From Chloroflexota bacterium (lineage in GTDB: Bacteria > Chloroflexota > Dehalococcoidia > SZUA-161): 34,514 nucleotides of DNA. Positions 5,970-23,276 of the stretch are shown in pieces (position 1 is the stretch's first letter; each line of letters opens with the position of its first letter). The position numbers and the translations under genes are program-made. Location: positions 1 through 34,514 of the forward strand of contig JAJYLC010000018.1 of the NCBI GenBank assembly GCA_021787935.1. The letters run 5' to 3'. Under the pieces are notes generated by a model. The model did no database searches. It was not told where the DNA came from and saw only the letters and a list, made by a program, of their open reading frames with translations.

Positions 5970-6509
5970 ATTCAAATATACACCGCATTGGACCATCCTC
6001 TGCCGACTAGTTCGTTATTTACGCTTCGGTGTGTATTCTGTAGACTAAGCACCAGTTATACCAGTTTTGGTCTTTCCTATCATGCACATCGGGATTAGGC
6101 AGCAATCGATATAGGAATAATCGCACATTTGCTGCAATCGGGGCTTCTCGCCTGTCCTCCAATAACACTTCCTAAATCTATAGTGCAATTGGAGCGGTCA
6201 CGATAATGTTGCGATGGCAGCTTCTCATGGCGTATTCCCGAAAACAGGTATGCGGACTGGCAGCGTCGTACCATCTCTAGAGTTAGATTTGCTCGCATTG
6301 TACCTGACGCTGAGCTTCACCTCGTGACTGCACATGTGACATAAGGCGAAGTGGTTCGCACTCCTCCCTTACTATCCACTAACCACGATTGTAACATTCC
6401 AATAAGATATGTATACTGTACTCGCCTTAGTGTAATGTCGCAGCTACACAACCCTTGTTAGGACAAACCTACGGTAGAAAAACACAGCGTAAAACCGGAG
6501 GATGCTGCC
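5970..6509. other. Long intergenic region; promoter of the next operon near its right end
   Basis: About 540 bases hold no convincing gene; the open frame 6095-6298 on the minus strand looks random. Just after the radical SAM gene, ATACACCG (about 5977) and CGGTGTGTAT (about 6027) could pair across a large loop, but there is no T-tract and I do not call a terminator. The operon promoter at 6389-6417 and an untranslated leader of about 85 bases occupy the right end. Confidence 0.5.
6389..6417 (+). promoter_or_regulatory. Sigma-70-like promoter of the DUF362/isomerase/OYE operon
   Basis: A -35-like TTGTAA at 6389-6394 and a -10-like TATACT at 6412-6417 are separated by 17 bases. Transcription would start near 6424, giving a leader of about 85 bases before the ATG at 6510. 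No riboswitch fold was recognised in the leader. Confidence 0.55.
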
Positions 6510-7802
6510 ATGGCAGAGAAGCATAAGGTTATCATCCGAAGCTGCTCTGATTATAAGGACCCGAGGCGCATCAGGAGCATAATAGGCGAGGGCATGGAGG
6601 AGCTTGGCGCCAAGCCTTTTGGCAGGGTTCTGTTGAAGCCAAATGTTGTCTTTGCTCACAGGAGATACTCTCGTTTCTCCTACACTCATCCCGCAGTTAT
6701 CGAAGCAGTTCTTGATGAACTGGCGGCACGGGCAGAAGTGGAAAGGATTATCATAGGTGAGAGGACAGCTATCTACATGCCGACGCGGTACAACTTTGCA
6801 GTGGCTGGATATAGCAGATTGCGCAGAAAACCCAAGGTTAAGTTCTGCTTCTTTGACGAGGATGCTCTGGTGGAAGTCCCCTTCCAGAAGGGCAGCTATC
6901 ATAACTCTTTGCGTTTGTCGCGCACCTTTGTGGAGTCTGACTACAAGCTCTATGCTCCCAAGCTCAAGCACCACATGACCAGCAAACTGACCTGCGCCAT
7001 CAAGCTGAACGTCGGCATCTGTGACCATAAGGAGCGTCTGGACGGCCATGATTTCCATCTTGAGGAAAAGATTGCAGACCTGTACGAGGTGGGCTATCCC
7101 AACCTCGTGGTAGTAGATGCAGTGATAATCGGTCAGCAATGCGAAATGGTGGCTAAGCCCCTCTCCTTCGGTGTCATAATGATGGGAACATCCGGCGTGG
7201 CTATAGACTCCGTGGCGGCCAGGCTTATCGGGTTCGACCCGAACGAAATCGACCATCTCAGGATAGCTAGGTCGCGAGGCTGGGAACCGGCAAGCGATGA
7301 CGATATAGAGATCAAGAGTGACGTTCCCCTAGATGAACTCAGGGAGAAGACCAAGTACCTCGATCGGAAGTTTTCCAACCTACTTGACTTGGACACGCCT
7401 CTCCGAATTTATTTGGGGAACTACCCGGGAGGCAATGACATCTGCCATGGCGGTTGTGTGAATATGCTCAAGGGAGCACTGGCTACGTTCGAGGCTTATA
7501 AACCGGGCGGGATCAAGCAGGCTCAGGATAACGCCATTGTTATCGGTGAGTACGAAGGCGATGTGGATGGCCATGGTCACACCATCCTTCTGGTCGGCGA
7601 CTGCACAAAGATTAAGGGTAAAGTCACCGGGAAGACCAAACGTATCAAAGGTTGCCCGGTAGGCATACCATACTTTTCTGCCTTCGGCCCCTTCTATTGC
7701 AAATTACCCAACCTCTATATGGACCGTGACTACTTTCTCAGGTTTCCCTACCACTACGCAGTTTCTTCTGTGGTTAAGTTTATTAATAGGAAGCTGCGCT
7801 AG
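6510..7802 (+). CDS. DUF362 domain-containing protein
   Basis: This 430-residue protein matches the DUF362 pattern: VLLKPNVVFAHRRYS with THPAVIEAVLDEL (residues about 45-75), KLKHHMTSKLTCAIKLNVGI in the middle, and the LVVVDAVIIG and SGVAIDSVAARLIGFDP segments (about 195-245). DUF362 proteins are uncharacterised and are often fused to or encoded with ferredoxin-like iron-sulfur proteins. The C-terminal third has several cysteines (ICHGGC, GDC, KGC) that could bind a metal or cluster, though no standard CxxCxxCxxxC ferredoxin motif is present. GGAGG at 6497-6501 sits eight bases before the ATG. The next gene starts 31 bases downstream and the third follows closely, so the three probably form one operon. 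An open frame on the opposite strand (6444-7256) is its shadow. Confidence 0.88.
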   Translation: MAEKHKVIIRSCSDYKDPRRIRSIIGEGMEELGAKPFGRVLLKPNVVFAHRRYSRFSYTHPAVIEAVLDELAARAEVERIIIGERTAIYMPTRYNFAVAGYSRLRRKPKVKFCFFDEDALVEVPFQKGSYHNSLRLSRTFVESDYKLYAPKLKHHMTSKLTCAIKLNVGICDHKERLDGHDFHLEEKIADLYEVGYPNLVVVDAVIIGQQCEMVAKPLSFGVIMMGTSGVAIDSVAARLIGFDPNEIDHLRIARSRGWEPASDDDIEIKSDVPLDELREKTKYLDRKFSNLLDLDTPLRIYLGNYPGGNDICHGGCVNMLKGALATFEAYKPGGIKQAQDNAIVIGEYEGDVDGHGHTILLVGDCTKIKGKVTGKTKRIKGCPVGIPYFSAFGPFYCKLPNLYMDRDYFLRFPYHYAVSSVVKFINRKLR

Positions 7803-10618: not shown

Positions 10619-10908
10619 CTTTGTAAAGCATAACGAAGGAAATTAAGTAGGAAGAATTGCATGAAAGCATAACGCGCCTGCCAGGCTCAGGCATGAACGT
10701 TGTCAACGAAAGTGGGAGAATCAGACCTTTTGAAGTAGCGACGGCTTCGTTGGCATAGATGATTTACAGTTTGCCCAACTAGGAAACCTTAGGCAGAAAC
10801 ACTCACCAAGAGGGCGTCTTGTCGAGTCACATTCGTCCAGAATGTGCGGTATGGAGGTTAATCCCAAGTCATGGCGAGTCTAACTGCTCGCTGCCTTTGT
10901 AGTGCCTC
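10619..10908. other. Convergent intergenic region
   Basis: About 290 bases separate the operon end from the convergent MarR gene. The 11-mer AAAGCATAACG is repeated directly at 10625-10635 and 10664-10674. A GCCTG/CAGGC hairpin lies at 10676-10692 but lacks a T-tract, so it is only a weak terminator candidate. No gene was seen. Confidence 0.4.
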
Positions 10909-12827: not shown

Positions 12828-13511
12828 TTAAGCCTTTTTCAACTGACAAACCTGCTCTAAGGTGTTCTCTGCCATTCTCATGTTGCCCTGTGCACTCTCT
12901 GCTATGAACTGCAAATGGCGAGAGTCAGGGCTTATGCCCACGCTCTTACAGATGGACTCCAACTTCTCTCTTATCTGCTCTGGCTTCAGCTTGACAAAAG
13001 GGAACATCTGGCAGCGCGAAACGGCGGTATCAGGTATCTTCTCCAGATGTGTGGTGCACAGGATAATGACCAGGTGAGGCGGTGGTTCTTCCAGCAGTTT
13101 CAGCATCCCGTTCCAGGCCGCTTCGGTAAGCTGGTGACATTCGTCTATGATATACACCTTGCGCTTCCCCATCGGGAAAAGGTGAGCTCGATAGGCAAGC
13201 TCCTTTACTTCGTCAATCCCCCTGAAGCGAGCCCCGTCAATTTCCAGCACGTCCCAATGGCCGCCCTCTCGAATCAGCCTGCACGACTGGCATTGACCGC
13301 AAGGCTCACCATCCCCGTCCATGCTCTGGCAGTTGAGCGCCATCGCTAGAACCCTGGCAGTGGTGGTCTTGCCCGTACCGCTTGGCCCGCACAGCAGGTA
13401 GGCATGATGAAACGTGTTACCCTTAGCCTGGTTTATGAGTATGCTGGTAACCTCGTCTTGCCCCTGGACATCAGCAAACTTCATTGGTCTATACGTCTGA
13501 TAGAAGCTCAT
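12828..13511 (-). CDS. Truncated DnaX-like clamp-loader AAA+ ATPase
   Basis: This 227-residue protein is plainly the N-terminal part of DNA polymerase III gamma/tau. It shows the YQTYRPMKFADVQGQ start, Walker A GPSGTGKT (residues 42-49), the zinc module C61, C71, C74 and C77, and Walker B IIDECH (121-126). Sensor 1 is CTTH (152-155) and the SRC arginine-finger motif is at 166-168. Host DnaX proteins run to 500 or more residues; this one stops at the end of AAA+ domains I-II. The collar (domain III) and tau tails are absent, and the sequence after the stop does not continue them in any frame I checked. All catalytic motifs are intact, so it is probably a functional reduced homologue, not a pseudogene. 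GGGGGTG precedes the ATG. It belongs to the mobile element and lies 11 bases after the SymE-like gene. Confidence 0.9.
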   Translation of the reverse strand: MSFYQTYRPMKFADVQGQDEVTSILINQAKGNTFHHAYLLCGPSGTGKTTTARVLAMALNCQSMDGDGEPCGQCQSCRLIREGGHWDVLEIDGARFRGIDEVKELAYRAHLFPMGKRKVYIIDECHQLTEAAWNGMLKLLEEPPPHLVIILCTTHLEKIPDTAVSRCQMFPFVKLKPEQIREKLESICKSVGISPDSRHLQFIAESAQGNMRMAENTLEQVCQLKKA

Positions 13512-13920: not shown

Positions 13921-14433
13921 CTATCTCCCGCCATAAAGGGCGAGGCGCGGGTTTGACCAGGCAGCATCACCAGCCTGCCGTCCCGCTGTTGTGAGACGGA
14001 AATACTTTCGTGATGGCCCTGGTGGGTAATGGTCTTGGAAGGCTGAAGGCTCTTCTCGACCCGTAGGCTCGACCCATTCCAAACGCTGGAGATTGGAGAA
14101 GTAAACAACGAAGGAGTGAAAGCGACAACTGGTGGCCTTATAGGGAAGACGGGCCAGGAATCTTTCAGTTAGCCTCTCGATCTCCTCAGGACTTATGGCA
14201 CGCCTTTCGCGCCTGGCTCGTCGCTCTTCCTCTCTGGTAGCCCTATCTAAAGCTATGGCTTCGAGAAGGGCTGTCTTGTAGTGGTAAAAGATGTCTGCCT
14301 GGGGAGCGCCGACATCGGGGTCTATCTTGGCCGAGCCATTAGGACCGTGTCCGAGGAGGAATTCCCTGATAAACCAGGCACAGCCAAAGGGGCGCAGAAA
14401 ACCGCCTCTAGCCGGCCTTAGCGGTTCGACCAC
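13921..14433 (-). CDS. Hypothetical protein with possible C-terminal winged helix
   Basis: I do not recognise this 170-residue protein firmly. It starts at GTG (14433) with an excellent AAGGAGGG site just upstream. It has a conserved-looking N-terminus (GGFLRPFGCAWFIREFLLGHGP), a phrase APQADIFYHYKTALLEA, and an arginine-rich helix (RATREEERRARRERR). The C-terminal segment (YFSNLQRLEWVEPTG, then RKYFRLTTAGRQAGD) reads like the recognition helix and wing of a MarR/PadR-type winged helix. It may be a DNA-binding accessory protein of the element. It lies 25 bases downstream of the minimal recombinase gene and is probably co-transcribed with it. A 194-base gap separates it from the SymE-like gene. 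Confidence 0.7.
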   Translation of the reverse strand: MVEPLRPARGGFLRPFGCAWFIREFLLGHGPNGSAKIDPDVGAPQADIFYHYKTALLEAIALDRATREEERRARRERRAISPEEIERLTERFLARLPYKATSCRFHSFVVYFSNLQRLEWVEPTGREEPSAFQDHYPPGPSRKYFRLTTAGRQAGDAAWSNPRLALYGGR

Positions 14434-14458: not shown

Positions 14459-15133
14459 TCAGGAAGTCCTCTTGTCCCAGAGCTTTTGATACCATTCTTT
14501 GTGCTCTTGTCCAGAGACCTTTCTGTATTTGGCAGTGGTGTTAAAGCTGGAGTGCCCCAAATGCTCTTGAAGCAACCTGAGGCCATCACCGGAATCATCT
14601 ACCTTTACAGCATGCACCGCGAAGGCATCTCTCAGCCTGTGCGGGCTCACCCCATGTACTTTACCTGTCTCCGGATTAGTCAGGTCGGGAAGTTCAGCCC
14701 TATCAGCACATTCCCTTACTATCTGCCAGGCACGATGCCGGTTAATTCTGAAGATGAGGCCCTTTGTTTTATCCCTGGTGATGAAGTCACGAAGCATCTC
14801 TAAGGTATCGGTATCAACAGGTAAAGTTCTTACCCGGCGGTGCTCTCTTTCCTGGGCTAGCGCCTTTTCGACGCTATCGCCGCAGATCGGGCAGAATTTA
14901 TGGCTTTTGCCCAGTCTTGCTCCGCACTTCGGGCAGGAAAGCTTTAGCCGGGCCTTGAGATGCTCTATACTGACCGTGCCCTGGGCAAAGTCTATATCTT
15001 CCACCTTCAAGGCCAAGGCCTCACTAATGCGGCAGCCCAATCGAAACAGGAGCCTGATAAGCAGCCTGTCTCTGAAGCAGGTGGCCGCTTTCTCCAGACC
15101 TTCTACCTCTTCCTCGTCAAGATAAGCCTTCAT
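14459..15133 (-). CDS. Minimal tyrosine recombinase with inserted zinc ribbon
   Basis: This 224-residue protein is a phage-integrase-family catalytic domain without the usual N-terminal core-binding domain. The catalytic residues are visible: R35 (GCRISEAL), a candidate lysine near K60/K64, H165 and R168 (SPHRLRDAFAVH), H194 (EHLGHSS) and nucleophile Y203 (TTAKYRKV). Between the first arginine strand region and the beta-hairpin lies a zinc ribbon with C67, C70, C81 and C84 (CPKCG, CPICG). Such an insertion in the catalytic domain is unusual. Lack of the arm-type and core-binding domains suggests it relies on a partner for DNA recognition, or acts as a resolvase or invertase rather than the integrase of the element. 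The next gene downstream begins 25 bases on. Confidence 0.9.
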   Translation of the reverse strand: MKAYLDEEEVEGLEKAATCFRDRLLIRLLFRLGCRISEALALKVEDIDFAQGTVSIEHLKARLKLSCPKCGARLGKSHKFCPICGDSVEKALAQEREHRRVRTLPVDTDTLEMLRDFITRDKTKGLIFRINRHRAWQIVRECADRAELPDLTNPETGKVHGVSPHRLRDAFAVHAVKVDDSGDGLRLLQEHLGHSSFNTTAKYRKVSGQEHKEWYQKLWDKRTS

Positions 15134-15187: not shown

Positions 15188-16153
15188 TCAAGGAGGGGCG
15201 CTGCCCATGTATAACTTGAGGAGTTCTTCAAGGCTAAGGCTACAAACCTTGTGTTGAACAGTGCTCAAGATGAAGGGAAAAGGGGCAGGATCCCGGCATG
15301 TGGTACAGACAATATCTACTGTTTGCCCTCTGAGCAGTACACCTATCTGTGAAGGACTCAGATCAATGGCAAGCTTGCCACTGCACTTATCGCAAATGAA
15401 CCACCATGTGCCTTGTAGCTCCTTCAGCAAATCCTTGAGACTGGCAGTAAGTGCCCTGACCTTAGAAGCAGCGTAGTCTTTCCACTGCGCTGCTTTCATT
15501 AGTTCGAGGCGCTTCTCAGCCTCGGCCTCTGCTCTCCTTTCGAATTCAGCGGTCAAGCGCTCATTTACCAGTGCATTAACCTCCGCAAGGTAGTAACTCT
15601 TGAACCGATCGGGCCACTGGTCTCTAGCACCTAGAATGCTATCTGCAATCTGACTTGCTCTAGAATCGATGACTTTTGCTATCTCAGAGGGCAAGCCACG
15701 CTGCTTAAGCACCTCTACCAGCCTTCCATAGACTAGGGAAGGCATCTGTGACTGGATATCCCTCTCCAGTTCCTGGGAGCGCTCCTGCGCCTTCCTCTCA
15801 ATCTCCTCTACCTTTGCCTGTAGAAACTGATCTCTCATCTCCTCCAGAGTAAGTTCACCACCCTCAGGGAACTTCATCCTCAATTCTCTCAGCGACGACA
15901 GTTCCTGCTCAGCCTCACCCAGCCTACCGGACAGCTCATTAACCTCGCCCCGGGTTTTGGTGAGGCCTGAAGAAAGCTCGCCGTTTGCGTGCATTTCAGT
16001 TTTTAGCTGTGCTTCGAGCTTGGCTACCTTTTCTTTCAACTGGGTTGCTTCCGCGGTCAGGGAGTCCCGCTCCTCTTTCACTTGGGAGTAATATTTCAGC
16101 GCCTCAAGGTCTCGGAGATACGCTTCCATCTTCTGGAATTCATTTGCCACCAT
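15188..16153 (-). CDS. Coiled-coil protein with C-terminal zinc ribbon
   Basis: This 321-residue protein is unrecognised as a family. Residues about 5-100 are a dense heptad-rich coiled coil (KMEAYLRDLEALKYYSQVKEERDSL onwards), followed by more charged helices to about 240. The C-terminal part has two CxxC pairs (C254/C257 and C283/C286), ICDKCSGKL and VCTTCRDP, which form a likely zinc ribbon. There is no signal peptide or membrane segment. Its start overlaps the end of the upstream HTH coiled-coil gene by 14 bases, so translation is probably coupled and the two proteins may interact. A structural or DNA-bridging role, for example in partition or scaffolding, is a guess. Confidence 0.75.
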   Translation of the reverse strand: MVANEFQKMEAYLRDLEALKYYSQVKEERDSLTAEATQLKEKVAKLEAQLKTEMHANGELSSGLTKTRGEVNELSGRLGEAEQELSSLRELRMKFPEGGELTLEEMRDQFLQAKVEEIERKAQERSQELERDIQSQMPSLVYGRLVEVLKQRGLPSEIAKVIDSRASQIADSILGARDQWPDRFKSYYLAEVNALVNERLTAEFERRAEAEAEKRLELMKAAQWKDYAASKVRALTASLKDLLKELQGTWWFICDKCSGKLAIDLSPSQIGVLLRGQTVDIVCTTCRDPAPFPFILSTVQHKVCSLSLEELLKLYMGSAPP

Positions 16154-17774
16154 ATGCCCGTCCTTCAGTGAGGGTAATTAGGCACCAGACAAGTAGATCA
16201 GCAAGTTCTACATCGGTGTTCTCACTGATACGGTGATACTTTTCCACGATGTGCCGTGGCGGCTTGAGCTTGGGGTTAAACGTCCTTGAACACCAGACCA
16301 GGGCAACGGCCAGATATTGACTTACGACCAAGGCTGGCAGTTCTTCAACGAGTGCTGCCACGGCTTCTTTTGATAGTGGTAGGCTACCAAAATACCTGGC
16401 AAGCTTGAGTTCCTCTTCGTATCTCCCGACTTCGGCCTTGATATCTCCCCACCTCTGTACGTCTTCTAGGAGAATGCGGTCAACATTCCGCACCTCCTGA
16501 GTGACAGCAACCGAGGCCTCCTTGACTTCCTTGATGGCCGACTCTTTAAGCTCACGAATCGTTGTCTTTATTCCCGTTTCCTCCGCCCGAAGCCCCTCCA
16601 CGACCCTGGTACGCTTACGTTCTTCTTCCTCCAGCCTTTTCAACTCCTCCGTGCGGGAGGCAATGCCCTTTGTCAGTCCCCCCATCTCTATGATCTCCCT
16701 TTCCAGCTCATTGTGTTCCAAGCCCGACTTGGACAGCACCCGGCAGTACGAGGCGACAGCCGAAGGCGCGACGCCCTTCTTCTTCAGGGAGACCAGGGAC
16801 TTAACTGCCTCCTCTGCTTCGCTAGGGGATAGCCCTAACCTGGATATGATGTGCTGCAAGGAATCTTTTTGTGCCTGAAGGCTGGCTACCTCCCGCTCTA
16901 GCTGTTCTCTCTTTCTCTCAACACCAAGTAGTGCCCCATATTTAATAAGGTCTTTGAAAAACCTGGTCCTCAGCGCCTCCGGCGTGAGGCTCTGGCTCGA
17001 GGCTATCTCGTCCAGCTTGACTCTTAGTGCCTCCAGTTCGCCTTTGCCAAAGCCGAGCCCTTCAAGGGCTTCTACGTGTGGCCGCAGGGCTTTGATCTTG
17101 TCATTCAACTCCTCTACCTCCCTATTCAGTAACTGTCGGCTCCCCTCCAGTCGACTGTCCTCATTTCTCAGCGCCTCACATCGGGTAGATAGCTCGGCTG
17201 TCTCCCTCTCCAGACCCTGCTTTTCTTCGGTCAGCCTCTGGCAGTCCGCAGTGAGAGCAGCCTGGGTTTTTTCCAGCTCCTTCTTTTCCGACCTCAGGTG
17301 CTCCACCTCTTGTCCCAAGCTCTTGGACTCGGCACGTAGCGCAGACCACCTGGCTGCCACAGATTCATATGATTCGCCTGTCTCCTGGACGAGCCGGAAC
17401 AGCTCAAGAGCAGCGGCGGTAAATTCCTGAGAAGGCTCCCCAGCAGGTGACATCTCACGGCACATCTCTACCCAGAGCCATAGCTTGTCTGGAGTTACCC
17501 CCATCTCGTTGAGCCTTGAGAAGAAGGCAATGCCCAACAGAGCCTGAGATACCCCGCCACCTTTCTTCCTCAACTCCACAGAAAGGTCGCGCAGGGCGTC
17601 CACCAGATCAGCGACCTCGGTAAAGGCTGGGAACCGGCCAGCTCGGAAATCGTTCACCACGTTCACAACAGTCCCTTTCCCCACCGCGGCCTCGGTCGAG
17701 ATTTGGTCATAGGAGTAGCCTTCCAGATACAATCTCACAATCTCAAGTTTCTTTTTTTCATTCAGTTCCTTCAC
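16140..17774 (-). CDS. HTH and long coiled-coil protein
   Basis: This 544-residue protein starts at GTG (17774) with GGAGG seven bases upstream. Residues about 5-45 form a helix-turn-helix of the transposase/sigma-like kind (KKLEIVRLYLEGYSYDQIS, then VGKGTVVNVVNDF). A helical domain follows (about 50-140). Two long coiled-coil blocks (about 145-240 and 270-450) come next, with phrases such as LSTRCEALRNEDSRLEGSRQLL. The last 90 residues look globular (LPLSKEAVAALVEELPALVV, LVWCSRTFNPKLKP). No Walker motifs are seen, so it is not an SMC-type ATPase. The combination of DNA-binding head and long rod resembles DNA-tethering or partition proteins in outline only. It overlaps the next gene by 14 bases, and a direct-repeat array lies 70-140 bases upstream of its start. 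Confidence 0.78.
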   Translation of the reverse strand: MKELNEKKKLEIVRLYLEGYSYDQISTEAAVGKGTVVNVVNDFRAGRFPAFTEVADLVDALRDLSVELRKKGGGVSQALLGIAFFSRLNEMGVTPDKLWLWVEMCREMSPAGEPSQEFTAAALELFRLVQETGESYESVAARWSALRAESKSLGQEVEHLRSEKKELEKTQAALTADCQRLTEEKQGLERETAELSTRCEALRNEDSRLEGSRQLLNREVEELNDKIKALRPHVEALEGLGFGKGELEALRVKLDEIASSQSLTPEALRTRFFKDLIKYGALLGVERKREQLEREVASLQAQKDSLQHIISRLGLSPSEAEEAVKSLVSLKKKGVAPSAVASYCRVLSKSGLEHNELEREIIEMGGLTKGIASRTEELKRLEEEERKRTRVVEGLRAEETGIKTTIRELKESAIKEVKEASVAVTQEVRNVDRILLEDVQRWGDIKAEVGRYEEELKLARYFGSLPLSKEAVAALVEELPALVVSQYLAVALVWCSRTFNPKLKPPRHIVEKYHRISENTDVELADLLVWCLITLTEGRAYGGK

Positions 17775-17843
17775 CTCTTCGCCTCCATGCCCCTCTTGCC
17801 GAATGTAAACATGGTCTGCCCCCTTTACAGTGGTGGCATAGCG

Positions 17844-17914
17844 TTTTGACTATTTGACCGGCCTTTTGAACACTTTTTGACCGAGTTTTTGACCAGGATT
17901 GTGAACATCTGACC
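17844..17914 (+). repeat. Iteron-like direct repeat array (TTTTGACC type)
   Basis: Seven copies of a short word with the core TTGAC or TGAAC follow each other: 17844-17850, 17853-17859, 17864-17871, 17874-17882, 17886-17894, 17899-17906 and 17907-17914. The TGA cores are spaced 8, 12, 11, 12, 12 and 8 bases apart. The best copies are TTTTTGACC; a more distant relative occurs at 17933-17939. On the minus strand the word reads GGTCAAAA. The array lies 70 to 140 bases upstream of the HTH coiled-coil gene, in an otherwise gene-free spacer. It could be an iteron origin, a partition site or an operator of that protein. Confidence 0.65.
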
Positions 17915-18089
17915 GCTATTCTGCCCCCGCTATTTGAGCATTCCGCCGAGTGGGATTGACCTAACGTGGCGGCAGGCACAGCGCTGACGATTTGCTGGAG
18001 CAGAACCCTAAGGATTTCCAGCGGTTTCCTTGTTACAACCTTTTGGCTTATGATGTGGCGGAGGGGAAGAGACCGAAGGCTGGCCCCCG
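17915..18089. other. Spacer between iteron-like array and small Gly-pair protein gene
   Basis: With the repeat array, this forms a 315-base interval (17775-18089) without a credible gene. Open frames exist across it on the minus strand (17758-18195, 18008-18256), but they overlap the well-supported gene at 18090 and their translations show no protein-like pattern. The interval would suit an origin or a promoter region for the downstream operon. Confidence 0.45.
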
Positions 18090-18317
18090 CTAGCCTCCTT
18101 TCTGATCTTTGCTCCTCTTCCCCTCCATGACTTGTTGAAGGCATTGCTTCGGTGGTCTGCCACCCCGAGTGCCCCACTCTGCGAAACGATCCCAATGGAG
18201 TTCCTTGGTCCGCTGCCCACCTCTCCTGCCGATTTTGCGGAAATGGTCTGTGCCATATTTAGAAAGGGTTTTCAGGCCACCCCTTCTGCCCATCTCTTCA
18301 ACACTTAACTCTGCCAT
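18090..18317 (-). CDS. Small glycine-pair repeat (KGG-like) protein
   Basis: This 75-residue basic protein is built from three repeats of about 20 residues ending in RRGG or RGG: MGRRGGLKTLSKYGTDHFRKIGRRGG, then QRTKELHWDRFAEWGTRGG. This resembles the stress-associated KGG repeat (as in GsiB) and small proteins found on phages and plasmids. GGGAGG a few bases before the ATG supports it as real. The high Arg/Lys content suggests nucleic-acid binding or a disordered role, but function is unknown. It is divergent from the plus-strand gene at 18403 and heads the minus-strand module, with the iteron-like spacer behind it. Confidence 0.7.
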   Translation of the reverse strand: MAELSVEEMGRRGGLKTLSKYGTDHFRKIGRRGGQRTKELHWDRFAEWGTRGGRPPKQCLQQVMEGKRSKDQKGG

Positions 18318-18343
18318 AAGCCTCCCGCCGATATGGCGAGCAG

Positions 18344-18373
18344 TTGCTACCTTATTAATATCATTGCTATAAT
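18344..18373 (+). promoter_or_regulatory. Sigma-70-like promoter in the divergent region
   Basis: TTGCTA (18344-18349, four of six matches) and a perfect TATAAT (18368-18373) are 18 bases apart. Transcription would begin near 18380, giving a leader of about 23 bases to the ATG at 18403. The region lies between two divergent genes and is A+T-rich, so a minus-strand promoter for the small Gly-pair protein probably overlaps it. Confidence 0.6.
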
Positions 18374-18402
18374 AAAGTTAAGAGGATACAAACACGTGTG
18401 AA

Positions 18403-19137
18403 ATGGAGTATTGCTATAAAAATCGTCACCTGGTGTTGTGGAGTTTGCTTCTCTCACCCTGTGCGTCGAACCCTGAGCAGGTCGAGCACCTGCAACAACT
18501 ATGGGTAGACATCTGGCAGCGGAGAAGTGAGCAGCGCAGAGAATGGACAGCCAAGGTGCCATTGTCTGTCCCCTTGGGCCTTACAGGGACCTATGCTCTC
18601 ATCCAGGGTTACGGTTGCGTCGAGGGTGATTATGAGATTCTCGGCTTGGCGCCAGAACCAGAATTGTTGTTATGTTTCGACAAGGTACTACAAACGCCTA
18701 CATACAAGGTTAAGGGGGAATTGACGGCAACCACGAAACGGCGTCTGGAGAGCTGGTTAAAGAAGGCTTACCCACAGCGGTTCAGACACCCTGGTCCGGT
18801 AAAAGGGTTACCTATATCGCGGGGCGAGATATTGCTGATAGGAAGTCCTGTACTTAGGGAAGCCATAAAGGAATTGGTGGTAGAAGCTACGGTGCAAGAA
18901 ACGGTTGCTGCTGACCCGCGCTATTCTTCTACTACGGACGGATTGAAAGTGTTACGTCATGATGCGCAGACGCGGTTCGAGGAGACGCTCAAAGTATATC
19001 GTGGGCGCAAAAAACGTTCTTTGGGGCAAGCCGCAACTGGGATGCCCGTCGTCCTTGTCACCAGCGAACTTGATCCTCACTACATCGTAGTTAAAGGTCG
19101 CCGGATGGCCTATCTGCCCGTGCTCGGCCGCACATAG
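18403..19137 (+). CDS. Hypothetical protein, 244 aa, on the opposite strand of the element
   Basis: I do not recognise this protein. It has no clear catalytic motif. Residues 45-85 show a moderately hydrophobic beta-like stretch (VPLSVPLGLTGTYALIQGYG) and the middle has the phrase LTATTKRRLESWLKKAYPQRF. The C-terminal part is basic (YRGRKKRSLG) and ends in strand-like VVLVTSELDPHYIVVKGRRM. The N-terminus MEYCYKNRHLVLWSLLLSPCAS could look like a signal peptide by chance. The best Shine-Dalgarno candidate, AGAGGA, is 16 bases before the ATG, which is far, so the true start may differ. The promoter upstream supports expression. It is the only plus-strand gene in the element and may be a repressor or accessory protein; that is only a guess. 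Confidence 0.6.
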   Translation: MEYCYKNRHLVLWSLLLSPCASNPEQVEHLQQLWVDIWQRRSEQRREWTAKVPLSVPLGLTGTYALIQGYGCVEGDYEILGLAPEPELLLCFDKVLQTPTYKVKGELTATTKRRLESWLKKAYPQRFRHPGPVKGLPISRGEILLIGSPVLREAIKELVVEATVQETVAADPRYSSTTDGLKVLRHDAQTRFEETLKVYRGRKKRSLGQAATGMPVVLVTSELDPHYIVVKGRRMAYLPVLGRT

Positions 19138-19181: not shown

Positions 19182-20174
19182 CTACCTCAGCCCTAGTCGC
19201 TCGACTGGTTTGGCTCTGTCAAGGGCGGCAAGCGCTTCCTCTAACTTCAATCCCATGGTATACCTTCGGGTCATCGCCAAGTCTTTATGGCCGAGCAAGA
19301 GCTGCAACAAGAAGGGATCTTTGATTTCTCTCAACGTGTTTAACGCCCAAGTGTGCCGCAGTTTGTGAATAGCCCCAGGACAGTTGACCCCCGCCCGCTT
19401 CTTGATTCTTCTAAAGGCAATATGGAGTCCGTTCACCGTAAGTCTTTTCCCTTCCTCCGTGAGCCAGAGCCAGTCGCCGGCTCTGCCATATCGTTTGGCA
19501 CGCTCATCTCGGAGAGCCAAGTATTTCCAGAGAGCCTTCTTAGTCACGGTATCAAAGCCGATCACACCTTCTTCACCTCCCTTTCTGAGCACCTTTGCCC
19601 TGCCTCGCCTCAAGTCCAAATCCAGGAGGTGGAGGTTAGCCACCTCACGGAACCTTCCCCCACTGGCAAGATAAAGCAGAATGATTGCTTTGTTCCGTGC
19701 GCCCAGAAAGCTAGCCCCATCCTTGAAGTCATAGTCGCAAACCGCAAGCAGCTTTGTCAGCTCTCCGGCTGTGTATGGTTCGACCGGCTTCTCTTTTGGC
19801 GGCTTCGGCTTGATATTGGAGAGGGGGGTCTTCTCTAGAAACCCTTCTGATACGGCCCAGTTGAGGAAGCGCCTCAAGGTTCGGTAGTAGCGCCAGCCGC
19901 CTGTCTTTGAGGACTCTCGGCAGTTCTCTGAGCCATTCCCCGTGGTTCCCCAGCGGTTCCTGGCGTTGCCAGCATAGGCTAGGAATTCTCTAACTTTCCA
20001 GGAATCTATTCCTTGGGGATCATCAGGCCAATTGTGCTCCGACGCGTACCACAGGAAGCGCCGTAAATTGCCTTGGTAGTAATCAACAGTGGAGGGCTCC
20101 CTCCCGTCCACCTGTAGCGCGAAGATGAACCCCTGCACCAAGGCCGACAGGGGCAATTGGGATTTATTCCCCAT
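19182..20174 (-). CDS. Tyrosine recombinase/integrase adjacent to tRNA-Met
   Basis: This 330-residue protein has both parts of a phage-type integrase. The N-terminal SAM-like core-binding domain (residues about 8-115) contains REPSTVDYYQGNLRRFLWYA and GWRYYRTLRRFLNWAV. The catalytic domain carries R (SGGRFREVANLHL), K (KVLRKGGEEG), H-x-x-R (IHKLRHTWALN), H (LLLGHKDLA) and Tyr (TRRYTMG). The gene is transcribed away from a tRNA-Met gene whose 3' end is 122 bases from its start, the standard layout of a tRNA-targeting integrase. It is therefore the likely integrase of the element extending to the left. The ribosome binding site is poor. A second, minimal recombinase with a zinc ribbon lies about 4 kb away. 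Confidence 0.93.
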   Translation of the reverse strand: MGNKSQLPLSALVQGFIFALQVDGREPSTVDYYQGNLRRFLWYASEHNWPDDPQGIDSWKVREFLAYAGNARNRWGTTGNGSENCRESSKTGGWRYYRTLRRFLNWAVSEGFLEKTPLSNIKPKPPKEKPVEPYTAGELTKLLAVCDYDFKDGASFLGARNKAIILLYLASGGRFREVANLHLLDLDLRRGRAKVLRKGGEEGVIGFDTVTKKALWKYLALRDERAKRYGRAGDWLWLTEEGKRLTVNGLHIAFRRIKKRAGVNCPGAIHKLRHTWALNTLREIKDPFLLQLLLGHKDLAMTRRYTMGLKLEEALAALDRAKPVERLGLR

Positions 20175-20296: not shown

Positions 20297-20372
20297 TGGT
20301 GGTAGCGGAGGGATTTGAACCCCCGACCAAGGGCTTATGAGTCCCCTGCTCTACCGGCTGAGCTACGCTACC
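20297..20372 (-). tRNA. tRNA-Met (anticodon CAT)
   Basis: Read on the minus strand, the acceptor arm GGTAGCG pairs with CGCTACC, the D arm is GCTC/GAGC, the anticodon loop is CTCATAA, and the T arm has the TTCAAAT loop. A encodes the discriminator and CCA is encoded at 20299-20297. The anticodon CAT fits elongator Met, but tRNA-Ile2 (where CAT is modified to read ATA) cannot be excluded. The 31-39 pair of the anticodon stem is an A-G mismatch, other stems pair well. The 3' end borders the integrase gene and is the presumed attachment site of the element. Confidence 0.95.
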
Positions 20373-20436
20373 ATAGGAAAATATGATAGCACCGGAGATA
20401 CAGTGTAGTCAACGTTAGAAGGTGTTCGAGGCTGCC

Positions 20437-21627
20437 CTATCTGTTGCTGAGAAGTGCTACGACCCTGTCCAGTATCTTGTCAGCCACCTCTGATTTGAGC
20501 ATTAGCGGAAGCTCCTCCGCCTTACCATCGCGGCCTATAAATGTCACACGGTTGGTATCGGTATTGAATCCGCTGTCTTTTGCTGTTATATCATTTACCA
20601 CAATAAGGTCAAGCTGCTTCTTCTTGAGCTTCTCGGTGGCCCTAGCTATTATGTCCCCGCTTTCGGCAGCGAAGCCGACCTTGATAATATCTCCCTTCAC
20701 TTCAGCGAGGATGTCGCCAGTCTTTACTAGTTCAAGATTCAAGGTTTCAGCTTCCCTCTTTATCTTGCCCTCAGTCATGGTGGCAGGCCTGTAATCAGCC
20801 ACTGCAGCAGCCATAATAAGGACGTCTGCGGCAGCAGTCGCTTTAAGTATGGCGTCTCGCATCTCCTCAGCCGTCCGCACGAGCATTGCATCAACCCCCG
20901 GCAGAACTGGGAGCGACGTCGGCCCCGTAACCAGAGTCACCACTGCACCCCTATCCCTGGCTGCTTCAGCTATGGCATAGCCCATTTTACCGGAGGAACG
21001 GTTGCCTATATACCGGACTAAATCGATGGGCTCCTGAGTCCCCCCGGCGCTGACTACAATCTGTTTTTCAGCAAGATCGCCTTTCCTGCCCAGTACGTGG
21101 TAGATGATGCCCAGGATCTCCTCGTTCTCAATGAGCCGCCCCATGCCCACCAGGCCCGAGGCCAAGCGGCCATAGCCAGGACCCACTATGGTGAACCCTC
21201 GTGAGCGCAGTTTGTTCAAATTCTCCTGTGTTATGGAGTTCTGCCACATGCCAGCATCCATGGCTGGTGCCAGAATCACGGGAGCCCTGGTAGCAAGCAC
21301 GGTGCTGAACAGCATCTCATCGGCGATCCCTGCCGCCAGTTTGGCAATAGCATCCGCGGTCGCAGGAGCCACAACCACCACATCAGCCCTTTCCGCAAGC
21401 GCAACATGCTCTACACTGAACTCGGATGTCGGCTCGAACATATCAGTCACCACAGGTCTGTGAGTGATACTGCGGAAGGTCAGCGGCATCACAAACTGCA
21501 TAGCAGCCTTGGTCATTATTACATCAACGCATAACCCTTTTTGCGTCAACTTGCTGGCGATATCCGCTGCCTTGTAAACCGATATGCTGCCGGTCACTCC
21601 CAAGATTACATTTTTATCCTTGAACAC
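20437..21627 (-). CDS. coaBC: Bifunctional phosphopantothenoylcysteine decarboxylase/phosphopantothenate-cysteine ligase
   Basis: This 396-residue protein makes 4'-phosphopantetheine precursors in two CoA steps: CTP-dependent ligation of cysteine to 4'-phosphopantothenate, then FMN-dependent decarboxylation. The N-terminal CoaC flavoprotein half is seen in ILGVTGSISVYKAADIASKL, ADVVVVAPATADAIAKLAAGIAD and the PAMDAGMW (PxMNxxMW-like) site. The C-terminal CoaB half shows IVVSAGGTQEPIDLVRYIGNRSSGKMGYAIAE and AAAVADYRP. The length is normal. It starts at GTG with GGAGGGAG upstream, 15 bases after coaX, so the two CoA genes form an operon. The gene ends 64 bases before the tRNA-Met 5' end. Confidence 0.97.
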   Translation of the reverse strand: MFKDKNVILGVTGSISVYKAADIASKLTQKGLCVDVIMTKAAMQFVMPLTFRSITHRPVVTDMFEPTSEFSVEHVALAERADVVVVAPATADAIAKLAAGIADEMLFSTVLATRAPVILAPAMDAGMWQNSITQENLNKLRSRGFTIVGPGYGRLASGLVGMGRLIENEEILGIIYHVLGRKGDLAEKQIVVSAGGTQEPIDLVRYIGNRSSGKMGYAIAEAARDRGAVVTLVTGPTSLPVLPGVDAMLVRTAEEMRDAILKATAAADVLIMAAAVADYRPATMTEGKIKREAETLNLELVKTGDILAEVKGDIIKVGFAAESGDIIARATEKLKKKQLDLIVVNDITAKDSGFNTDTNRVTFIGRDGKAEELPLMLKSEVADKILDRVVALLSNR

Positions 21628-21642
21628 GCTCCCTCCAGATAT

Positions 21643-22416
21643 TTACTGCCTTCCGCTATTCAGCTCGTGGACCAATCTCAGACCCACCAGCGTCAGGTCA
21701 GGGTCCAGAACATCGATTACATCGGTCTCTCTGGCGATAGCGCCTGCCAGCCCGCCCGTAGCAATTACCCTCACCTTTCCACCAAGTTCCTTTTTCATAC
21801 GGGCCACAATCCCTTCGATAAGCCCGACATAGCCGAAAATAATTCCTGACTGCATCGCAGCCACGGTATTTCTGCCGATAGCTTTCTTCGGTCTAGTCAA
21901 CTCCACGCGTGGCAATTTAGCCGCACGCTCAAAGAGCGCATCGGCGGAGATGCCAATTCCGGGAGCGATGGCTCCCCCGAGGTAATCGCCATCAGCCGAT
22001 ACAGCGTCCAACGTAGTTGCAGTGCCAAGGTCAATAACAATCAACGGACCTCCATAAAGGCGGTGGGCTGCTGCGGCATTGACCACTCGGTCAGCTCCGA
22101 CCTCGCGGGGATTATCGAGCGAGATGCGAACTCCGGTTTTAATCCCCGTGCCTACCACGAGAGGAGTGACTTTGCAATAACGCTGGCACAATTCGTCTAA
22201 AACCGTCACCATAGGCGGAACCGAGCTTGAGATGATAGCCTCGTCGATATCGGAGAAGGAAAGGCCATCCAGAGTCAACAGGTTGAGCAAAATCGCAGCA
22301 TATTCATCGGCAAGCTTATGGACATCTGTGGAGAGCCTCCAGGTAGCCTTCAGCTTCTCGCCTTGAAAAACACCCAGAGCAATGGTGGTATTGCCAATAT
22401 CAATTGCCAGTAACAT
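21643..22416 (-). CDS. coaX: Type III pantothenate kinase
   Basis: This 257-residue protein is a type III pantothenate kinase (CoaX), which phosphorylates pantothenate in the first CoA step. It opens with the ASKHA phosphate-binding motif MLLAIDIGNTTIALGVF and shows NPREVGADRVVNAAAAH, then VIDLGTATTLDAV (with the second acidic ASKHA motif) and VIATGGLAGAIARETD. Type III enzymes are not inhibited by CoA and need a monovalent cation. The start ATG has GGAGG ten bases upstream. It sits just before coaBC in the same operon. Confidence 0.97.
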   Translation of the reverse strand: MLLAIDIGNTTIALGVFQGEKLKATWRLSTDVHKLADEYAAILLNLLTLDGLSFSDIDEAIISSSVPPMVTVLDELCQRYCKVTPLVVGTGIKTGVRISLDNPREVGADRVVNAAAAHRLYGGPLIVIDLGTATTLDAVSADGDYLGGAIAPGIGISADALFERAAKLPRVELTRPKKAIGRNTVAAMQSGIIFGYVGLIEGIVARMKKELGGKVRVIATGGLAGAIARETDVIDVLDPDLTLVGLRLVHELNSGRQ

Positions 22417-22519
22417 GCTGTCTCTGCCTCCACACTCGCCGGTAAGGTGCCAATAAATTGACGTATATTATAACGAAGTTCGTTTGCGGTTACAATGACT
22501 CCCCGGGTAATCCTTGAAT

Positions 22520-23215
22520 TTAAAGCTCAGTCTTCCTGGCTTGTTGGCGCTTGAAGTAGTCCAGACCTTTCTTGGTATCGCTGGCAACCCGAGGTTTGTC
22601 GCAGTTGGCAATCCTGTACTTGAATAACCAGTAGGTGAACTCCTGTAGCTGGCCCAAACTCATGGTATCACTTTCGGGGTAGCTTTTATCTTTGCGAAAT
22701 TTCCGTAGCAGTACCGCCCGGCTGGCTCCGTAGACCCTCTGGTAGCTATCTTCAACTTCTCCCCTGCCCCTGTAAAAGCTATGCGATTGATACTCTTTGC
22801 TGATTTCCTCTTCAACTGCCAGAAGAACAAATTTCTCCACAATAACGCCATAGAAGTAGTTGAGATAGGCATGATATTTGGCAGGGCCAATAAGCCTCTT
22901 GAAAGCATCCTCGGATAATTCTTCAGGCAATCTGCCGGAAAAGAGCAGGTCGATAAGTTCCTGCTCTGGAATAAGGCCGTCCACCTCCTGGCAGAGACGC
23001 TGCGCCAGAAGAAGCCAGTCGAATGCCTCGCCGGCGATTAAGTAGCAGTAATGATATTCGCCATGGCTTTCCTCAGGCCAGCTCCAGAGCCCGATAGCCT
23101 CAAGCAGGGCAATATGCCAGGGCTTTCCACTGGCGATGGCTTGCTTCAAGTGCTGTACCGCCTCGCTGTCGCCGACAGTGGTCACCGAACAAGGATTTGT
23201 ACTATCTTGAGCCAT
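22520..23215 (-). CDS. Conserved hypothetical protein, 231 aa
   Basis: I do not recognise a family with a known role. The protein is mostly helical and tryptophan/tyrosine-rich. Phrases include HIALLEAIGLWSWPEE, YHYCYLIAGEAFDWLLLAQRL, then HAYLNYFYGVIVEKFVLLAVEEEI and YRGRGEVEDSYQRVYGASR. There is no signal peptide, membrane segment or cofactor motif. Such proteins are typical of lineage-restricted conserved genes next to CoA synthesis genes. The start codon has only a weak upstream GGGCGGG. It lies 103 bases before coaX on the same strand, so joint transcription is possible. Confidence 0.75.
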   Translation of the reverse strand: MAQDSTNPCSVTTVGDSEAVQHLKQAIASGKPWHIALLEAIGLWSWPEESHGEYHYCYLIAGEAFDWLLLAQRLCQEVDGLIPEQELIDLLFSGRLPEELSEDAFKRLIGPAKYHAYLNYFYGVIVEKFVLLAVEEEISKEYQSHSFYRGRGEVEDSYQRVYGASRAVLLRKFRKDKSYPESDTMSLGQLQEFTYWLFKYRIANCDKPRVASDTKKGLDYFKRQQARKTEL

Positions 23216-23276
23216 TTAACCCGCCCTGTTGAATAGGCAGCAATCCCTATTTCATGAGGTCGTTTAGCAATGAGTC

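Follow-up and report, generated by a model that had tools for sequence, protein, structure and literature searches.

The tRNA-Met locus and its integrated element

The window, by which we mean the whole 34,514-nucleotide stretch of DNA that was analyzed, contains a tRNA-Met gene (20297-20372, minus strand) adjoined by a tyrosine recombinase gene of the integrase kind (19182-20174, minus strand). The gene at the center of this work (16140-17774, minus strand) has a GTG start and encodes a 544-aa protein with an HTH and a long coiled coil, to which we refer as the rod protein. Its end is overlapped by a partner gene (15188-16153, minus strand) for a 321-aa protein with a coiled coil and a C-terminal Cys-rich region, and a 63% identical homolog occupies the same place in genome G383. 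Beyond the partner, the gene order is a short tyrosine recombinase that carries a zinc-ribbon insert and is a conserved part of the module (14459-15133, minus strand), a 170-aa protein of unknown family that follows this recombinase in relatives too (13921-14433, minus strand), a 227-aa mini-DnaX comprising only the ATPase part of the DNA polymerase III gamma/tau protein (12828-13511, minus strand), and a 315-aa protein. Divergent from the rod gene is a 244-aa gene (18403-19137, plus strand) with no match in Pfam, NCBIfam, or PHROGs.

A genome of the same genus, G001, shares DNA homology (88% identity) with positions 20297 to 23255 of the window, and the two genomes differ beyond the 3' end of tRNA-Met. 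The homology ends at the last tRNA base, which marks the tRNA-Met gene as the insertion site and thus places the rod-gene module in an element inserted there. Judged from this sequence boundary, the repeat array described below is part of an element integrated exactly at the tRNA-Met 3' end. A search on the far side for a repeat of the tRNA 3' end, which would serve as the att repeat and mark the other end of the window element, turned up nothing, and there was no sign of a free form. At 19768-19778, an 11-bp repeat was noted but rejected as an att candidate: it falls within the integrase gene, and a repeat of this kind is roughly what chance would produce. The mini-DnaX is distinct from a separate 552-aa frame on contig C97 of the same genome (49% identity). 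It sits on the element side, a possible replication link of the element.

An array of short words upstream of the rod gene

The intergenic stretch at 17775-18402 is bounded by the starts of the rod gene and of its divergent neighbor. Within it, about 70 to 140 bp before the GTG start of the rod gene, lie seven TTTTGACC-type 8-bp words (17844-17914). They start at 17844 (TTTTGACT), 17852 (ATTTGACC), 17864 (TTTTGAAC), 17875 (TTTTGACC), 17887 (TTTTGACC), 17899 (TTGTGAAC), and 17907 (ATCTGACC), and a recheck exactly reproduced the core spacings of 8, 12, 11, 12, 12, and 8 that a preliminary description had reported for seven copies in a gene-free stretch. Read on the minus strand, in the direction of the rod gene, the word is G(G/T)TCAAAT and the successive copies are GGTCAGAT, GTTCACAA, GGTCAAAA, GGTCAAAA, GTTCAAAA, GGTCAAAT, and AGTCAAAA, with spacings of 8, 12, 12, 11, 12, and 8. 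The diverged further copy mentioned in the same description was found at 17932 (ATTTGAGC; minus strand, GCTCAAAT), and another was found at 17954 (GATTGACC; minus strand, GGTCAATC), so that the two outlying words span 17932-17961.

The density of the array was evaluated with a motif-agnostic test that takes the most copies of any 7-mer, with at most one mismatch, per 100 bp. The intergenic stretch scores 7, and seven copies were reached in none of 800 simulated sequences, the maximum being 6 in Markov sequences of local composition (n = 400) and 5 in those of window composition (n = 400). The rest of the window reaches at most 5, which makes the array the densest such cluster. The array is genuine and not a product of chance. 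Its words also favor one side of the helix, as had been suggested from their spacing: the mean phase coherence R at 10.5 bp is 0.72, versus 0.49 for random spacings of 7 to 13 bp. This clustering on one face arises from the preferred spacings of 11 to 12 and 8 to 9 bp, not from the order in which they occur.

Distribution of the rod gene and its array

To find related loci, we searched from a five-sequence alignment; many of the relatives are MAG contigs (Dehalococcoidia/Chloroflexi). A protein search of 197 related genomes gave matches in 20, a profile search found the rod gene in 30 of 393 genomes of the class, and the matches in a 400-genome sample of the phylum were confined to the same class, Dehalococcoidia. 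The homologs share about 20 to 35% identity and are spread over many families of the class. Their distribution is patchy, and some genomes hold two or three copies, which is what one would expect if the elements are mobile. No relative was found in PLSDB (plasmids), INPHARED (phages), or IMG/VR.

Looking for the same repeats at the same place in related elements had been named as the way to refute a role for the array, and there it is kept. It precedes the homologous gene, in the same orientation and about 45 to 170 bp upstream, at 24 of the 29 mapped starts, as counted by eye from a table of upstream regions. Among the other five, the array of L042 is displaced by an insertion (compare L013), L093 has only a CTTCAAAT-like array, that of L099 is weak, and L094 and L095 have none. 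Three of these (L093, L094, and L095) are the copies of a single genome, G205, and they count against the reading of the array as a cognate site. Throughout 506,577 bases, all 15 chains of at least four words lie upstream of a rod gene, and permuted control words (60 patterns, including the unpermuted one) gave at most one chain; a whole-genome scan with a three-word pattern was not selective enough to discriminate. Among seven close relatives, the spacing does not vary, and the words are 91% conserved, versus 69% for the spacers inside the array. This exclusive linkage and conservation bear out the proposed functional tie between the array and the rod gene.

The commonest array unit is GTTCAAAT, with 30 copies. 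This unit, present in the arrays of L032, L034, L036, L050, and others, is identical to the tRNA T-loop sequence (GGTTCAAATCC), and the elements sit at tRNA genes; the likeness may be a coincidence, since GGTCA-type arrays lack it. In L034, L036, L100, and relatives, the interval from the end of the 170-aa gene to the array holds an inverted repeat around CCGGTCGACCGG.

The rod protein and its partners

The family of the rod protein is not described in Pfam, NCBIfam, or PHROGs. Its N terminus is matched by Pfam HTH_23 over residues 5 to 49, and an AF2 model of residues 1 to 140 predicts a tri-helical HTH at residues 6 to 44, without a wing (mean pLDDT, 79; about 90 over the HTH); a family alignment also backs the assignment of the protein. 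One relative has a Pfam match to Sigma70_r4, and coiled-coil-type matches extend along about residues 130 to 420. A Foldseek search with the N-terminal model gave no PDB match at an E value of ≤0.001, and neither Par nor RacA was among the matches shown; querying the PDB sequences with the family profile brought up generic coiled coils.

The type of word varies with the putative recognition helix. GGTCA words go with V or I in SKGxV[V/I] (window, L102, L103, L105, and L041) and with SHG types (L030 and L033), and GTTCA words go with SKGxV[A/G/S/F] types, this co-change being counted across relatives without correction for relatedness. Such tracking would be expected of an HTH that reads the array.

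Downstream of the rod gene, the partner is of one of three kinds, namely c2 (about 210 aa), c12 (about 195 aa), or c30, the last being the kind found in the window, G383, and G087. Near residues 75 to 90, the c12 proteins and most c2 proteins carry a short hydrophobic stretch; L031 lacks it, and in L039 the top-scoring stretch lies elsewhere. In the AF2 model of c2, a small alpha/beta domain comes after a long helix, and Foldseek found no PDB match for this model at an E value of ≤0.001. Searches of the partners against Pfam, NCBIfam, and PHROGs gave no actin-like or tubulin-like NTPase. The rod tail and the partner are exchanged together, whereas the HTH and the array stay: the rod tail of the window matches G383 and a 118-aa protein in G087, both beside c30. 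The usual arrangement is two overlapping genes; only in L041 and L042 are the HTH, the coiled coil, and a partner-like hydrophobic segment joined in a single frame. Because the rod tail varies with the partner type, the partner is probably bound by the tail.

Proposed role of the array and alternatives

The same words stand before the same kind of gene in two dozen distant elements, and the array is therefore very probably the rod protein's own site, a predicted docking site that would control the rod gene and perhaps aid inheritance of the element. We infer DNA binding by the HTH and autoregulation of the operon. The tri-helical HTH would read the G(G/T)TCAAAT words, and several copies of the rod protein would load side by side, about one helical turn apart, so that their rods extend to one side of the DNA. 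Since the array is directly upstream of the rod gene, its occupancy may repress or tune the two-gene operon of rod protein and partner; the position of the arrays, 47 to 167 bp ahead of the start, fits an operator, but a promoter scan found no promoter for the rod gene. The same nucleoprotein bundle, together with the partner protein, could serve to maintain the element, the most plausible form being a centromere-like complex for partition or tethering. Taken as a whole, the reading of a cognate multisite array that is both an autoregulatory operator and a nucleoprotein assembly site, perhaps centromere-like, appears reasonably probable to us. A partition or tethering role considered on its own is possible but speculative.

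Of the three functions first envisaged for the array, the operator is the best supported and the partition site is a possibility. It could be argued that the operator suffices, in which case the rod protein would repress or activate its own operon or switch element genes, with many sites for cooperativity and no part in partition. This account fits the strict position of the array, which in the loci examined is found directly ahead of the start codon and at no other place, and it sits well with the divergent neighbor at 18403-19137 in the window, with the finding of neither a partition NTPase nor a Rep protein, and with the fact that an integrated element needs no partition. However, a single-gene operator does not usually need five to nine phased copies or a rod several hundred residues long, and the co-exchanged partner suggests a structural assembly, so we consider an operator with no further role unlikely.

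The third function, a replication origin, is not supported. Short direct repeats near one-turn spacing resemble iterons that might be used upon excision of the element, which also carries the mini-DnaX ATPase, but the array is linked to the rod gene only. There is no DnaA box within 500 bp in the upstream regions scanned; no Rep-type initiator, ParM/TubZ, or relaxase was found among the element proteins scanned, nor was a Walker-type ParA among 20 window proteins and 20 related-locus proteins. An origin is therefore highly unlikely. Accessory, arm-type sites through which a tyrosine recombinase controls integration and excision would suit a module that is often beside recombinase and tRNA genes and an element at a tRNA 3' end. 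The array nevertheless tracks the rod gene and not the integrase: recombinases lie at varying distances from it and in varying orientations, neither L035 nor L038 has a member of the recombinase cluster within 5 kb, and the array lies away from the att junction; arm sites are, in our judgment, most improbable. Chance low-complexity similarity, with only the short word length in its favor, is refuted by the shuffles and the cross-genome conservation and has a negligible claim.

We thus retain the cognate array of the rod protein as the preferred reading. It would supply a concrete pair of site and protein, conserved over much of a class that is hard to culture and testable in E. coli. A broader proposal is that rods sitting in phase on the array, and joined by way of a replaceable tail to one or another partner (hydrophobic c2 or c12, or Cys-rich c30), constitute an undescribed partition or tethering system of Dehalococcoidia integrative elements that operates without a motor NTPase. 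We offer it tentatively and regard it as doubtful. If partition were true, a motor-free way of maintaining integrative elements would add to the mechanisms known for DNA segregation; if the array were an operator only, it would still mark a widespread, unnamed element family and provide a DNA signature for finding its members.

Comparison with known systems

Par of staphylococcal pSK1, RacA of Bacillus, and RocS of Streptococcus resemble the rod protein in having an N-terminal DNA-binding domain, a long coiled coil, a C-terminal tail, and no NTPase, and in pSK1 par repeats lie just upstream of the gene as well. These three proteins have a MerR-type winged HTH (PMC11500499). The HTH of the rod protein is tri-helical without a wing in the AF2 model, no sequence link was found, and the rod gene usually has a partner gene. 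As the HTH types differ, we do not claim membership in this group.

Partition on an integrative element has a precedent in srpMRC of the SXT/R391 ICEs (PMC4489591), and both tubC and parC are direct repeats (PMC5016525). In parMRC, tubZRC, and srpMRC, as here, a repeat array lies upstream of an operon that codes for a DNA-binding adaptor. In contrast to them, no actin-like or tubulin-like NTPase partner was found here, and in place of a small RHH or winged-HTH protein, the putative adaptor is a large one with a coiled coil. Iteron arrays also overlap the promoters of maintenance genes in the omega/parS (delta-omega) system of pSM19035 (PMC5016525). That system includes a ParA-type ATPase, which was not found here. 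Omega has an RHH DNA-binding fold, different from that of the rod protein.

Within the same bacterial class, the Dehalococcoides genomic islands inserted at ssrA carry an integration module with a Ccr-related recombinase (PMC3146451). They are integrative like the window element and target a tRNA-like gene; the target here is tRNA-Met, the gene set differs, and no comparable array is reported in the passages considered.

Additional features of related loci

Short tyrosine recombinases with a four-Cys zinc ribbon in the catalytic domain, like that at 14459-15133 (minus strand) in the window, occur in L028, L029, L032, L033, L034, L036, L037, L043, and L097. They usually precede the conserved 170-aa protein, and there is no family model for the pair as such. 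A conserved gene of about 240 aa lies near the module in L033 (10667-11377), L037 (11343-12071), and L097 (674-1408); it appears sigma factor-like by eye and has a Cys cluster, with no Pfam or NCBIfam match for those scanned.

The stretch 7912-11699 of L039 is possibly a minimal cassette, with tRNA-Lys, an integrase, the array, the rod gene, and a partner, followed by the core gene uppS. Beside it (6068-7785) is another small insertion, an InlB-type B-repeat gene that is flanked by tRNA-Pro and by a 15-bp repeat of the 3' end of that tRNA. In L043, the 3' end of tRNA-Gln is repeated exactly over 17 bp at 0.9 kb downstream of the tRNA-Gln gene (10683-10756); another copy, which is inexact, lies beyond it, and this suggests insertion in tandem. 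In G011, the 29-bp string TCAAAACGTCGGTTTCAAAAACCGTGTCA occurs near many contig ends (e.g., C33:54-82 and C36:56-84) and is probably a repeated element that broke the assembly.
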